Assembly: GCA_024640245.1 (NCBI GenBank)
Contig: JAHEFH010000005.1
Span: forward strand, 14,384-49,674
Source: Paracoccaceae bacterium
GTDB taxonomy: Bacteria > Pseudomonadota > Alphaproteobacteria > Rhodobacterales > Rhodobacteraceae
Direction: 5' to 3'
Length of the DNA: 35,291 nucleotides
Part shown: piece by piece, positions 8,545 to 32,976 of the stretch
Layout of the letters: every line of letters starts with the position of its first letter
How positions within the stretch are numbered: position 1 is the first letter of the stretch
Position numbers and translations under genes: made by a program
Notes under the pieces: model-generated
What the model was told of the DNA's origin: nothing
Databases searched by the model: none
The model's input: the letters and a program-made list of their open reading frames with translations, nothing else

Positions 8545-9942
8545 CTATTCCTTCAACAATTCGCCCTTGTCCCAGACTCCTTCGACGACAGAGCCGTCGG
8601 CATTTACCAGCTTGCCTTGCCCATGGCGCAATCCGTTCAGGAAACCGCCTGTGTAACGAACGTTGTCGGCGTCCTGCGCCATGCCCTGACCGGTGATCTT
8701 GCCTTCCATCCAGTCGCCCTCGTAGACAAAGCCGTCGGTCATATCCAGCCGTCCCAGTCCGTGCCGCTTGCCGTTTCGGAAGGCTCCGGTGTATATCGAG
8801 CCGTCCGAGTAATAGGCAACCCCCTCGCCTTCACGCATGCCGTCGTTCCAATCGCCTTCATAGCGGAAGCCGTTGGGGTACTGGATCGTACCCAGACCGT
8901 GATTGCGGGCGTTGCGGAACTCGCCTTCGTAGATGGTGCCGTTGGCATAGTGTGCGATGCCCTTACCCTCGATCACGCCGTTGATCCACTGGCCTTCGTA
9001 ACTGCCGCCGGTGGCATAATCGATGCGCCCGAAACCCGAAGGCACGTCGTCGCGGAATTCCCCCGTGTAGGTCGATCCGTCGGGATAGGTCATCGTGCCC
9101 TCGCCCGCGATCCGGTCGCCTGCCCACTGGCCGGTGTAGATGTATCCGTCGCCGGTCGTCAGTGTTCCAGTGCCGCTGCGCTGGTCATCGACATAGGTTC
9201 CGGTGAAGACATCGCCATCGAGCTTGGTCAGCGTGCCTTGGCCGTTGCGCTTGCCGGCCTCGAACATGCCCTCGTAGACGTCGCCGTTGCCATAGGTCAG
9301 CTTGCCCGTGCCGGACAGTTCGCCATTCTTCCATCCGCCCTGGTAATGCAGACCGTTGGCCGCGGTCAGCTGGCCCTGTCCGTCGCGCACGCCGTTGCGG
9401 ACTTCGCCCTTGTAAAGGCTGCCGTCGGCATAGGTGATATCCGCCTTGCCGTTTTTCTGCCCGTCGACCCAGTCCCCGCTGTAGCGATATCCCTGCCCGT
9501 CGGACATGGCGCCGGTGCCCTGGTGCTGCGCATCGACGAAGCCGCCCTCGTAGACGATGCCGCTGGCATAGACCGCGCGGCCCTGTCCGGTCATCTTGCC
9601 GTCGACCCAGTCGCCCTCGTAGGTTCCGCCGTCGGCGAATGTAATCTTGCCTTTGCCCTCGGGCTTTCCGTCGATGAAGCCGCCCTCATAGACCGAACCG
9701 TTCGGATAGTGCGCCACACCGTCGCCGAGGATCTCTCCGTTGACCCACTGGCCGAGGTATTCATAACCGTTCGGCAGGGTGTACTTGCCGATGCCGTGAC
9801 GTTTACCGTCCAGCATCGTGCCTTCGTAGATGCCGCCGGTTTCATATTGCTTTGTGATGATTTCGCCTGAAATCTGCGCCAGACCAGGGGGCGCGGACAG
9901 GGCCAGAAGGCCAATCAGGCAGAATGCGAAACGCGCATGCAT
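8545..9942 (-). CDS. Secreted MORN-repeat protein
   Basis: Signal peptide MHARFAFCLIGLLALSAPPGLAQ, then tandem YEGxWxxGxxxGxGxxxYxxGxx units. Start set at 9942 rather than the ORF-track 10053. Confidence 0.93.
   Translation of the reverse strand: MHARFAFCLIGLLALSAPPGLAQISGEIITKQYETGGIYEGTMLDGKRHGIGKYTLPNGYEYLGQWVNGEILGDGVAHYPNGSVYEGGFIDGKPEGKGKITFADGGTYEGDWVDGKMTGQGRAVYASGIVYEGGFVDAQHQGTGAMSDGQGYRYSGDWVDGQKNGKADITYADGSLYKGEVRNGVRDGQGQLTAANGLHYQGGWKNGELSGTGKLTYGNGDVYEGMFEAGKRNGQGTLTKLDGDVFTGTYVDDQRSGTGTLTTGDGYIYTGQWAGDRIAGEGTMTYPDGSTYTGEFRDDVPSGFGRIDYATGGSYEGQWINGVIEGKGIAHYANGTIYEGEFRNARNHGLGTIQYPNGFRYEGDWNDGMREGEGVAYYSDGSIYTGAFRNGKRHGLGRLDMTDGFVYEGDWMEGKITGQGMAQDADNVRYTGGFLNGLRHGQGKLVNADGSVVEGVWDKGELLKE
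8548..9828 (-). repeat. Coding tandem repeat: 18 full plus 1 partial MORN units, each exactly 23 aa (69 bp)
   Basis: Units counted by hand from YEGTMLDGKRHGIGKYTLPNGYE to VEGVWDKGELLKE; every full unit is 23 residues. Confidence 0.93.
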
Positions 9943-10143
9943 TTTGTACAATTTGTCTCCGGATCGCTCGCCATCCGGCTCCCTAATTCCCTTGGGCGGG
10001 TTCTGTGCCCACGTCTGAGGACAAAGGTTACGCGCTCGCCTCTTGCCTTTCAATGTTTTTCACGCCAGTTAGTTTTGAACTGTTATGGTTCTTGCAAAGA
10101 ACCTGTAATCGCGCCGGCGGCGGCGCAGAGCGAAGGATGACGG

Positions 10144-16328: not shown

Positions 16329-16973
16329 CTACCGCGCCGCCCGCCACCCAGCGCGCTGCGCCTCTGCCTCGTTGCAAAACCACCTTTCACCCTTGGCGGT
16401 GTTGATCTTGGTCCGAGAATACCACTTTGACCACGGCGTGTGATAAATCCTGCCATTGTCCGAGATGTTGCCCTTGATCGGGCAGCCCTCGGGCGCCTCC
16501 TTGCTGGCGGCGCTCCATTTCTGTTCGCGGAACTCCCACGCGGGTTGCGCCGGACCCTGCCAGATGCCACGCTTGTCGGCCTTTGCCTGCGCTTGGTCGC
16601 CGGCATAGACGTCCGAGAATTTCAGGAACGCCCATGCCATGCCTTGTGCCACCATCGCGCGGCCCAGATCGGATCCACCCGCCGAACAGGTGGCTATATC
16701 GCGGCCATAGATGTCCTGTCCCAGCGTTTTGCAGGTGACCCGTTTGCGCTTGGTCAGTTTTACTAGCATTTCCGTCGCCGCCTCGCCGCATTTCCAGTTC
16801 TTGCCGGCGGCGGTCTTGCAGTTCTGCGCCTGCTCCGGCGCGTCGATCCCGTTGAGGCGATAGCGGATACCGTTCAGGTCCAGGGTGTCGCCGTCGATGA
16901 CGGTGCCGTCGGCAGCGGCGATCTGGGCCGACATCAGTACGGCCAGCAGGCCGGTGATAAGTTTTCCTGTCAC
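16329..16973 (-). CDS. Secreted thermonuclease (SNase-like)
   Basis: 214 aa; signal peptide, VIDGDTLDLNGIRYRLNGIDAPE, DIYGRDIATC; C-terminal GCPIKGNIS...WYSRTKINTAKGERWFCNEAEAQRAGWRAA. Confidence 0.92.
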   Translation of the reverse strand: MTGKLITGLLAVLMSAQIAAADGTVIDGDTLDLNGIRYRLNGIDAPEQAQNCKTAAGKNWKCGEAATEMLVKLTKRKRVTCKTLGQDIYGRDIATCSAGGSDLGRAMVAQGMAWAFLKFSDVYAGDQAQAKADKRGIWQGPAQPAWEFREQKWSAASKEAPEGCPIKGNISDNGRIYHTPWSKWYSRTKINTAKGERWFCNEAEAQRAGWRAAR

Positions 16974-17060: not shown

Positions 17061-17104
17061 TCATACGCCCTGTGCACGCAAATCATACACTTTTCATACG
17101 GCCT
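17061..17104 (+). repeat. 44-bp array of four 11-bp units, copy A
   Basis: TCATACGCCCT/GTGCACGCAAA/TCATACACTTT/TCATACGGCCT, in the SNase/gltX divergent intergenic region. Confidence 0.85.
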
Positions 17105-17209: not shown

Positions 17210-18541
17210 ATGACCGCATCCAAGACCGTTACCCGTTTCGCCCCGTCGCCCACAGGCTATATCCACGTTGGCAACCTGCGCACCGCGCTGTTCAACTACC
17301 TGATCGCCCGCAAGGCCGGCGGGACTTTCATCCTGCGCCTCGACGACACCGATCCGGAACGGTCGAAACAGGAATACGCAGACGGGATTCAAGAAGATCT
17401 TCAGTGGCTTGGCCTGAACTGGGACCGGATGGAGAAACAGTCGGAGCGTCTTGACCGCTATGCGCAGGCCGCAGATGAACTGCGCGCCTCCGGCCGGCTC
17501 TACGAATGTTTCGAGACGCCGACCGAACTGGACCTGAAGCGCAAGAAGCAACTCAACATGGGCAAGCCCCCGGTCTATGACCGTGCCGCGCTTAAACTGT
17601 CAGAGGCCGAAAAAGCCGCCCTGCGCGCGGAGCGCCCCGGCCATTGGCGTTTCAAGCTGGACCAGGAACGGATCGAATGGACTGACGGCATTCTGGGCGA
17701 ACTTTCCCTCGACGCCGCCAGCGTTTCAGACCCCGTCCTGATCCGCGGTGACGGGCAGGTTCTGTATACGATGGCGTCGGTCTGCGATGATATCGATTTT
17801 GGCATAACACATGTTGTGCGCGGCTCTGACCATGTCACCAATACTGCGACACAAATCCAGATAATTCAGGCACTTGGCGGAAAGCCGTTGTCCTTTGCAC
17901 ACCATTCCCTGCTGACCGGTCCGCAAGGCGAGGCCCTTTCGAAGCGGCTCGGTACGCTGGCGCTGCGCGACCTGCGCAAGCGCGGAATAGAGCCGATGGC
18001 CCTGTTGTCGCTGATGGCGCGTCTGGGCTCCGCCGATCCGGTGGAGGTGCGCAAATCTATAGACGAGATCGCCGAGAATTTCGACCTGTCGCGCTTCGGC
18101 TCCGCCCCCACCAAGTTCGATGTCGAGGATCTGGTGCCACTGACCTCGAAATACGTTTCCGGCCTGTCCTTCGACGAAATTTCCGCCGAGCTGACCACGC
18201 TGGGCGTGCCGTCGGACATTGCGGAGTCTTTTTGGGATGTTGCCCGCGAAAACATCACCTTCCGCTCCGATCTGGCAGCCTGGTGGGCGCTTTGCCGTGA
18301 TGGTGCCGATCCGTTGATCGATCCAGAGGATGAAGAGTTTGTCGCGACGGCAAAAACGTTGCTGCCCGCGCGCCCGTGGAATGAAAATACATGGTCCGAA
18401 TGGACCGCAGCCGTCAAAGAGGCGACAGGCCGAAAGGGCAAGGGCCTGTTTATGCCGTTGCGCAAGGCCCTGACCGGCCAGCAACACGGGCCGGACATGT
18501 CAAAACTGATGCCGCTGTTGCAGAGCGTCAAGCTCCAGTAA
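17210..18541 (+). CDS. gltX: Glutamate--tRNA ligase
   Basis: RFAPSPTGYIHVGNLRTALFNYLIARKAGGTFILRLDDTDPERSK and ALSKRLG. Start set at 17210 rather than 17153. Confidence 0.97.
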   Translation: MTASKTVTRFAPSPTGYIHVGNLRTALFNYLIARKAGGTFILRLDDTDPERSKQEYADGIQEDLQWLGLNWDRMEKQSERLDRYAQAADELRASGRLYECFETPTELDLKRKKQLNMGKPPVYDRAALKLSEAEKAALRAERPGHWRFKLDQERIEWTDGILGELSLDAASVSDPVLIRGDGQVLYTMASVCDDIDFGITHVVRGSDHVTNTATQIQIIQALGGKPLSFAHHSLLTGPQGEALSKRLGTLALRDLRKRGIEPMALLSLMARLGSADPVEVRKSIDEIAENFDLSRFGSAPTKFDVEDLVPLTSKYVSGLSFDEISAELTTLGVPSDIAESFWDVARENITFRSDLAAWWALCRDGADPLIDPEDEEFVATAKTLLPARPWNENTWSEWTAAVKEATGRKGKGLFMPLRKALTGQQHGPDMSKLMPLLQSVKLQ

Positions 18542-30896: not shown

Positions 30897-31606
30897 GCGC
30901 GTTGAAACTGGGTGTTCCGTCCAAGGGGCGGCTGCAAACACTGACCATTGACTGGTTCGCGGGCCGAGGTATCGAACTGGCGCGATCCGGGTCCGAACGC
31001 GAATACGCGGGCCATGTTGTCGGCATGAACGATATTGAACTGGTGCTGCTCTCCGCTGGCGAGATACCCAAGGAGCTGGCCGCCGGCCGCATCCATCTGG
31101 GCGTAACCGGCATCGACCTGATCCACGAGAAGATCCCGCTGTGGCAGACGCGCCTGACCGAGGTCGAGCGCATGGGCTTTGGCTTTGCCGATCTGGTGCT
31201 GGCGGTGCCGAACGCCTGGATCGACGTGACCTGTATCGAGGATCTGGACGCGGTCGCCGCGAGGTTCCGCGCCGAGCATGGCTTCCGCTTGCGGATTGCC
31301 ACGAAATACCACAATCTGGTACGGGGATTCCTGCGTGAAAAAGGCGTGGCCGACTATCAGCTTGTCGATAGTCAGGGCGCGACGGAGGGCACCGTGAAGA
31401 ACCTGACGGCAGAGGCCATTGCGGATATTACTTCCACCGGCGAGACGCTGGTGGCGAACCACTTGCGCATCCTGTCGGACGGTCTGATCCTGAAATCGCA
31501 AGCCACTGTTTATGCTTCGAAAACTGCCAAGTGGAGCGCGAAATCGAAGGCTGCCTATGCCGCTCTTGCGGCCAAGGCGGTCTGGCCGGAAGGGGTCCAT
31601 AAATGA
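30893..31606 (+). CDS. hisG: ATP phosphoribosyltransferase catalytic subunit (short form)
   Basis: 237 aa; LGVPSKGRLQTLTIDWFAGRGIEL, LRIATKYHNLVRGFL; ATGA overlap with hisZ. Confidence 0.96.
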   Translation: MSALKLGVPSKGRLQTLTIDWFAGRGIELARSGSEREYAGHVVGMNDIELVLLSAGEIPKELAAGRIHLGVTGIDLIHEKIPLWQTRLTEVERMGFGFADLVLAVPNAWIDVTCIEDLDAVAARFRAEHGFRLRIATKYHNLVRGFLREKGVADYQLVDSQGATEGTVKNLTAEAIADITSTGETLVANHLRILSDGLILKSQATVYASKTAKWSAKSKAAYAALAAKAVWPEGVHK

Positions 31607-32451
31607 CGCTCCTGACAGTGGAAACCATCGCTGATCTGCGAAGGAAAGTCGCTGAATGGAAAGCTGCGGGCCTGACCGTCGGACTGGTTCCGACGATGGG
31701 TGCGCTGCACGAGGGCCACCTGTCGCTGATCACCCGGATGCTGGGACATGCGGACCGTGTAATCACGACGATTTTCGTCAATCCGACGCAGTTCGGCGCG
31801 GGCGAGGATCTGGACGCCTATCCGCGCACCCGCGAAGCCGATACGGCCATGATCGCGGAAACCGGTGGGCATCTGCTGTTCGCACCGCCCGTAAGTGAAA
31901 TCTACCCCGAAGGGTTTGCGACGCGGGTCGAGGTCGACGGGCTGACCGATGTGCTATGCGGACAGTCCCGGCCGGGGCATTTCGACGGGGTGACGCAAGT
32001 CGTCGCCAAGCTGCTGAACATGGCGCAGGCGGATTTCGCGATCTTCGGCGAGAAGGATTGGCAGCAGCTTGCCGTGATCCGACGGATGGCTAAAGATCTT
32101 GATATTCCAACGGAAATCAAGGGCGGGCCGATTATTCGGGACGAACTCGGGTTGGCGCTGTCATCGCGAAACGCCTATCTGAACGAGGCGGAGCTGGCGA
32201 TTGCGCGTCAGTTGAACGTGGTATTGCGCAAGGCGGCTTACGACATCGCGGCGGGCGGCTTCGCGCCGGATACCTGCGCGGCGGCGGCAGAGAAGCTGCT
32301 GGAAATCGGGTTCCGCGAGGTGGACTATGTCGAATGTCGAGACGCGGCCAGTCTGGTGCCGGTCGAACGCGTCGGCGAGGCCCCCGCGCGGATTTTCGGG
32401 GCGGCGCATATCGGGCGGGCAAGGCTGATCGACAACCACGCAGTCAACTGA
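31603..32451 (+). CDS. panC: Pantoate--beta-alanine ligase
   Basis: 282 aa; VGLVPTMGALHEGHLSLI, TIFVNPTQFGAGEDLDAYPR, FGEKDWQQLAVIRRM; ATGA overlap with hisG. Confidence 0.98.
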   Translation: MTLLTVETIADLRRKVAEWKAAGLTVGLVPTMGALHEGHLSLITRMLGHADRVITTIFVNPTQFGAGEDLDAYPRTREADTAMIAETGGHLLFAPPVSEIYPEGFATRVEVDGLTDVLCGQSRPGHFDGVTQVVAKLLNMAQADFAIFGEKDWQQLAVIRRMAKDLDIPTEIKGGPIIRDELGLALSSRNAYLNEAELAIARQLNVVLRKAAYDIAAGGFAPDTCAAAAEKLLEIGFREVDYVECRDAASLVPVERVGEAPARIFGAAHIGRARLIDNHAVN

Positions 32452-32464
32452 AAACGCCTCAAAA

Positions 32465-32508
32465 GGGGCGTATGATTTGTGTATGACATGCGTGCACAGG
32501 GCGTATGA
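32465..32508 (-). repeat. 44-bp array of four 11-bp units, copy B
   Basis: Minus strand TCATACGCCCT/GTGCACGCATG/TCATACACAAA/TCATACGCCCC, same register as copy A. Confidence 0.85.
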
Positions 32509-32541: not shown

Positions 32542-32976
32542 TCAGCGCAAGCCCAGAATATTCAGTGCATCGGCCAGATCGGCGGGCAGGGGCGTGTCGT
32601 CGGCGCGCGATTTAGGCAGGTCGGCCGGAGCGTCGGCGGCGGCCAGATAGCGCCAGCCCTGAAACGGGCGGCGCAGGGCGCATGTCGTGCGCACTAGCTC
32701 GGGCTCCATGACGATACCGCAGCGGCGGATACCGTCGGCGCCGATGACCTCTTCCAGTCGCAGGACGCGCTGGCGCACCTGCACAGAGCCTTTTATCACC
32801 CAGTAGAGCGAGCCGCCGTTGAGCAGTTCTTCGGCGCGTTTCGGCCACATGCGGGTGACATGCATCGGCTGGTTTTCCGGATCGGCGGCGATGCGCGCCG
32901 CCTGCCAGTCCGCCAGATCGTCGATGCTGTCTGTACCGACGCTGAGTTTTATCAAGTTGATGTATTTTTGTCCCAT
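32542..32976 (-). CDS. DUF1489-like family protein
   Basis: MGQKYINLIKLSVGTDSIDDLADWQ...HVTRMWPKRAEELLNGGSLYWVIKG. Start set at 32976. Confidence 0.8.
   Translation of the reverse strand: MGQKYINLIKLSVGTDSIDDLADWQAARIAADPENQPMHVTRMWPKRAEELLNGGSLYWVIKGSVQVRQRVLRLEEVIGADGIRRCGIVMEPELVRTTCALRRPFQGWRYLAAADAPADLPKSRADDTPLPADLADALNILGLR

Follow-up and report, generated by a model that had tools for sequence, protein, structure and literature searches.

The stretch of DNA analysed here (the window, 35,291 nucleotides of a Paracoccaceae genome, G000) carries two similar arrays of four 11-bp units. Array A occupies positions 17061-17104 on the plus strand, between a divergent gene for an SNase-like nuclease (16332..16973, minus strand; Pfam SNase, 3.9e-15) and gltX, which encodes glutamyl-tRNA synthetase (17210..18541, plus strand; Pfam tRNA-synt_1c, 1.1e-72) and whose start codon lies about 110 bp past the last core. 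Its units read, in order, TCATACGCCCT, GTGCACGCAAA, TCATACACTTT and TCATACGGCCT; the four cores (17061..17099) follow one another at 11-bp steps as TCATAC (17061-17066), GTGCAC (17072-17077), TCATAC (17083-17088) and TCATAC (17094-17099), with the 5-bp spacers GCCCT, GCAAA and ACTTT between them. Array B (32465-32508, minus strand) sits where two genes converge, between the 3' ends of panC (pantoate-beta-alanine ligase; 31603..32451, plus strand; Pfam Pantoate_ligase, 8.5e-95) and of a DUF1489 gene (32542..32976, minus strand; Pfam DUF1489, 2.8e-53), the latter separated from the start of the array by 34 bp. Its units are TCATACGCCCT, GTGCACGCATG, TCATACACAAA and TCATACGCCCC, and its cores (32470..32508) are TCATAC (32503-32508), GTGCAC (32492-32497), TCATAC (32481-32486) and TCATAC (32470-32475). 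The 3' edge of array B, GCCCCTTTTGAGGCG (32455..32470, minus strand), fits the family 3' boundary RCCNNTTTT; its sequence can form a short GC hairpin, and the edge may double as a terminator. Elsewhere in the window, positions 8548-10050 (minus strand) encode a protein with at least 10 MORN repeats, which have a 69-bp period in the DNA.

The first-pass annotation had placed the two copies correctly and in the same register: the core offsets 0, 11, 22 and 33 are identical in A and B, and the arrays are 86% alike over 44 bp. The 20-mer common to them occurs exactly twice in the window and is absent from all of 100 dinucleotide shuffles, even with three mismatches. The genome also holds more copies than chance would give, the first of two points on which the annotation had said it could be refuted. 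We found that a 39-bp pattern (up to three mismatches) occurs at six places in G000, at two in G018 and at one in G032, with zero matches to its reversed control in all three genomes. A sequence-only profile built from nine sites recovered seven arrays in G000, the seventh weaker, and a much larger number in relatives. A pattern that tolerates variant spellings (BYRYACRNNNN repeated four times, one mismatch) gave 37 matches in G027, 30 in G032, 28 in G018, 18 in G024 and 8 in G000, overlapping matches in one array being counted more than once; its reversed control gave 0-3. Near-identical arrays occur within G027. A chance origin is ruled out by the shuffles, the genome pattern counts and the reversed-pattern controls, which are mostly zero. 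All counts rest on pattern searches of genomes that are mostly drafts, and the array counts and gene calls are our own.

A genome that carries arrays has about 7-44 of them. When the family was sampled with one genome per genus, 33 of 397 genomes had arrays readable in the first code, with up to 62 matches, a lower bound given that other dialects escape the first-code pattern; in the class minus the family, 4 of 381 genomes had one minisatellite-like place each. The gltX array, whose conservation among relatives was the second such point of the first-pass annotation, occupies the same position in six further genomes of the genus and is thus present in 7 of 30. The remaining genus genomes have no periodic array in any word at gltX, so the system is patchy. 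As many members of the genus do without the gltX array, the array system is dispensable. In the draft genome G006 (C84:1637-2953; L420) the gltX frame is interrupted by a single TGA, which probably reflects a sequencing error or a broken gene. Dispersed intergenic 11-bp arrays were also seen in Flavobacteria, Prevotella and other Bacteroidales (loci L119-L234, e.g. L145:566, L164:6146 and L221:1468), with the words CCATACACTAT, CCATACACATR and TCATACGCNCR, some preceded by a conserved leader of at least 35 bp; they have no gene context in common with the Rhodobacteraceae arrays, and their word match says little about kinship, because a search by pattern picks out the very word it is given. Three related marine phage contigs in IMG/VR (L235:501, L237:1379 and L239:270) carry TCATAC arrays: an 11-bp array of the TCATACGCTTT type, then inverted copies, just before a structural gene block. 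Such phages may have taken over the word of their host or may bind it, and these array-like repeats of Bacteroidetes and some phages may or may not be related to the Rhodobacteraceae family.

We assessed the architecture of the family in 133 non-redundant arrays. Exactly four units are present in 106 (80%); the others have five (16 arrays), three (9) or six (2). A four-unit pattern supplied many of the arrays and so partly sets the minimum unit number, but the sharp drop beyond four is not produced by the search. Direct repeats at 11-bp steps, within the 10-11-bp spacing of OmpR/PhoB operators, are found in A, B and 106 of the 133 arrays, and the head-to-tail repeats, at about one unit per turn, match the BldC/Xis type on unit layout only. 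Among the cores, CCATAC was counted 333 times, TCATAC 130, GTGCAC 50, GCATAC 14 and GTGTAC 9; strand is not assignable for the palindromic words GTGCAC and GTGTAC. The bases 5' of the first core are TG (frequencies 0.78 and 0.90), and the consensus 3' of the last core is RCCNNTTTT. Two genomes of the genus, G028 and G023, contain arrays solely of self-complementary GTGCAC/GTGTAC-type units (e.g. G028:C124:1453), legible on either strand. Between arrays of G000, similarity is 0.85 inside the array and 0.24-0.37 outside it. Likeness among arrays of one genome fades within about 20 bp of the array, and G000, G018 and G091 show none past the array edges; the arrays are therefore not a fragment of some longer mobile element. 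The array has none of the inverted arms or inverted repeat ends of REP and MITE elements. We also rejected a minisatellite, because four units make up 80% of arrays, spacers are unlike between units and positions are kept across genera, and a structured RNA element, because an Rfam search of the window gave no match and array orientation is independent of the neighbouring genes.

With genes called by a simple codon-usage caller, all 61 sampled arrays of Amylibacter-group genomes lay clear of called genes. In high-GC genomes it put some arrays inside spurious ORFs. The arrays occupy short gaps, directly past stop codons or just ahead of starts, in all orientations. Grouped by the directions of their flanking genes (divergent, convergent or either co-directional order), the arrays divide almost evenly (10/9/8/8), whereas background gene pairs show a co-directional excess; a second array set leans toward the same/same setting (15 of 30). 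Some arrays lie 14-40 bp ahead of the start codons of lpd, soxD, chorismate mutase and gph, while several are found within operons expected to be co-transcribed, such as soxB-soxD and bchY-bchZ. In several species (loci L064, L083, L103 and L018), the array is separated from the start codon of lpd by a small hairpin of varying sequence (CGCCATTTTGGCG, GCCGATTTTCGGC, GCCAAAATGGC). The genes beside the arrays have unrelated functions and no common pathway, and among the flanking genes we found none that is both common to the arrays and able to encode a reader. OmpR/PhoB operators are expected in promoters of regulated genes; the places taken by the arrays include convergent 3' ends and intra-operon gaps. 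These results divide the earlier proposal of a binding site for one regulator. What stands is a multi-subunit direct-repeat layout on one helical face, in winged-helix style, repeated in the genome and conserved at gltX; what finds no support is a regulator of gltX specifically, as there are dozens of sites beside functionally unrelated genes in every gene arrangement. The position upstream of gltX is incidental, and of the two types suggested, OmpR/PhoB-type or iteron-like, the "iteron-like chromosomal element" was the better half of the guess.

Relative to replication, the array strand runs against the fork direction in 37 of 53 arrays from two genomes (P=0.005 pooled, with replichores taken from coarse GC skew). 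In G091, only 2 of 32 arrays fall within the megabase around the inferred terminus (P=0.005 with the region taken as given, 0.13 as an open scan). Both the strand bias and this sparsity are suggestive only. Strict replichore polarity was rejected, the bias being only 37:16, as was terminus exclusion, suggestive in G091 only.

The first-pass annotation could not see two features of the family, the ancestral positions of the arrays and the genome-specific unit word. Arrays recur in one gap, at one distance and in one orientation at lpd in six genomes, at soxD in four, at gltX in four, in the gltB/gltD gap in four (another genus included) and at other places; at gltX the array position is kept within the genus. 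Arrays 14-40 bp ahead of the chorismate mutase start are written GTGTAC in G342, TCATAC in G127, CCATAC in Maritimibacter and TGTGCAT in G088. Similarly, a 3-oxoacyl-ACP-synthase-like gene has an array in G342, Pseudooctadecabacter, Amylibacter and G141, and the arfB-yhhQ gap has one in G342, Pseudooctadecabacter and Marinosulfonomonas. The soxD array is also present in G141 and the lpd array in G335. The bchY-bchZ gap holds arrays in G141 and G091 in opposite sense, the sense of an array between dialects being partly a matter of definition. Array positions are common to genera with quite different words.

Depending on the genome, the unit word is TCATACG, CCATACG, GTGYACR, TGTGCAT, TGCCCGACA or another. 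In the 19 family genomes with a placeable chorismate mutase start, we looked word-blind ahead of this gene for four units, whatever their sequence, and found strong 11-bp periodicity in 7 of the 19; other periods of 7-16 bp were strong in none or one. New words appeared at this locus: TGTGCAT in G088 and G141, TGCCCGACA in G091, CCCTACG in G066 and TCATATGCAAA in G069. A word read at the chorismate mutase locus alone was then searched genome-wide. TGTGCAT at 11-bp steps gave 87 matches (44 arrays) in G088 and 36 (19 arrays) in G141, and none in eight other genomes; TGCCCGACANN gave 56 matches (32 arrays) in G091 and was absent from nine other genomes. The reversed controls of both searches were all zero. 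The word taken from one locus thus predicts arrays only in its own genome, or in a genome with the same word. Most words are one or a few bases apart and retain an A, then C or T, near the core end, which suggests that they drifted from one ancestral site. G018 and G032 use TCATAC/GTGCAC and CCATAC side by side, and such a pair of words requires us to suppose either two readers or a transition. A NikR half-site, brought to mind by TCATAC, was dropped because the units are repeated directly and TCATAC is missing from other dialects. The structural alternation YRYACR as sole code fitted the first words and failed for TGCCCGACA.

G018 and G032, both Amylibacter genomes, share seven orthologous arrays in which the word was kept and seven in which it was switched. 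In the kept-word arrays, 166 of 168 core positions are identical (98.8%), compared with 70 of 84 spacer positions (83%; P=6e-6 for core versus spacer) and 557 of 686 flank positions (75-87%). In the switched arrays the cores drop to 118 of 168 (70%) while the flanks hold at 514 of 686 (72-78%), indicating that a word switch hits the array as a block. Most core changes in switched arrays retain the purine/pyrimidine class.

Our data reveal a fixed four-unit architecture on one face of the helix, conserved places, genome-wide words and en-bloc switching. Our reading, in which we have about even confidence, is that A and B are members of a dispersed family, ancestral in Rhodobacteraceae, of fixed-size sites for one protein, whose specificity drifts while the sites follow, with a role at the level of the chromosome. 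Each site has four (sometimes five) 11-bp direct repeats; about 6-7 bp of a unit would be recognised and about 4 bp left free, and four protomers of one putative protein would occupy the site, head to tail on one helical face at one protomer per turn. The likeliest reader would be a winged-helix domain of the OmpR/PhoB or BldC/Xis type, predicted to bind about 10-45 intergenic sites around the chromosome. A function in chromosome organisation, segregation or division timing seems likelier than regulation of the neighbours, because no gene arrangement is avoided and the adjoining genes are unrelated. Drift of the reader between genomes, with the sites following by co-evolution, would leave each genome with its own word at inherited positions. 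Against this reading count that no reader protein came to light, that G018 and G032 use two words, that many genus genomes lack the array at gltX, and that the position bias is weak.

Could the arrays instead be operators of one OmpR/PhoB-family response regulator, with their neighbours as the targets of an ordinary global regulon? OmpR/PhoB proteins favour units of about 7+4 bp repeating every 11 bp on one helical face, the classical layout of the family, and the arrays 14-40 bp ahead of lpd, soxD, chorismate mutase and gph are placed as operators might be. Many others, however, lie between convergent genes or within operons in either orientation, the neighbours have no common pathway, and a genome-wide change of word between relatives is rare for broad regulons; we regard this explanation as unlikely. 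Quite unlikely, in our view, is a selfish or mobile short repeat that spreads by copying and whose word is kept uniform in each genome by concerted evolution (gene conversion between arrays). Uniformity within genomes, en-bloc switches and the near-identical arrays in G027 speak for it, but similarity past the array edges is absent in G000, G018 and G091, positions are inherited across genera, and the sites have mostly four units, no inverted ends and no Rfam match.

Arrays in short gaps past stops or ahead of starts, in all orientations, and the terminator-like edge of array B are also compatible with a protein roadblock or insulator between transcription units, in which bound arrays halt RNA polymerase from either side. 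We consider this very improbable, as 10-45 sites per genome are far fewer than the transcription unit borders, and several arrays are inside operons meant for co-transcription (soxB-soxD, bchY-bchZ). Least probable is a self-recognition tag by which a cell would know its DNA as its own, for uptake, protection or repair. Dispersed sites with a word peculiar to each genome do resemble the uptake-sequence dialects of Neisseriaceae (PMC3630211), and TCATAC arrays occur on the marine phage contigs (L235, L237, L239); yet tens of sites rather than thousands would give poor coverage for uptake, and strict four-unit arrays are unnecessary for a tag.

Within the reading of co-evolving sites and reader, we tentatively suggest, at somewhat less than even confidence, a chromosomal address system of a kind not described before. 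In it, one putative reader would evolve so fast that a word of its own marks many genera and at times even a sister species, while dozens of four-iteron sites stay at their ancestral positions and are rewritten together as a set. Such a system might be a bacterial counterpart of co-evolving centromere repeats, or of recombination-hotspot motifs, and their readers. We found no paper describing the arrays in the searchable literature. If the reading of co-evolving sites and reader is right, Rhodobacteraceae carry a dispersed site-and-reader system in which the sites are fixed and the word changes genome by genome, and this would show how a DNA-binding protein can change specificity yet keep dozens of targets, a long-standing question. 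The family has many culturable members with dialects already legible, and would offer a new handle on chromosome organisation in abundant marine bacteria.

Known systems resemble the arrays in part. OmpR/PhoB operators are normally found in promoters and have a stable word, whereas the arrays occur in all intergenic settings and their word changes between genomes. The nucleoid occlusion sites of SlmA and Noc are not known to form tandem direct-repeat arrays; in common with our arrays, they are spread over the chromosome, perhaps more sparsely towards the terminus (PMC4117426, PMC4331003). REP/BIME and MITE-like repeats are likewise short, dispersed and intergenic, but the arrays lack a palindrome or inverted ends and have inherited positions and a strict unit number. 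With the winged-helix filaments of BldC, RdfS and lambda Xis, the arrays would have in common several protomers placed head to tail on direct repeats: BldC binds in this way, four perfect repeats taking four subunits (PMC5859096), as does the RdfS/Xis group (PMC11963761). BldC, in contrast, uses 9-bp units in variable number in a developmental regulon (PMC5859096), where ours are 11 bp, and is not known to have dialects. The closest precedent for differing words is the DNA uptake sequences of Neisseriaceae, which are dispersed, uniform within a species and different between relatives (PMC3630211). Those, however, are single short words read by ComP and present in thousands of copies (uptake sequences in general number hundreds to thousands per genome), whereas here the word is written in tandem four-unit arrays, tens per genome.
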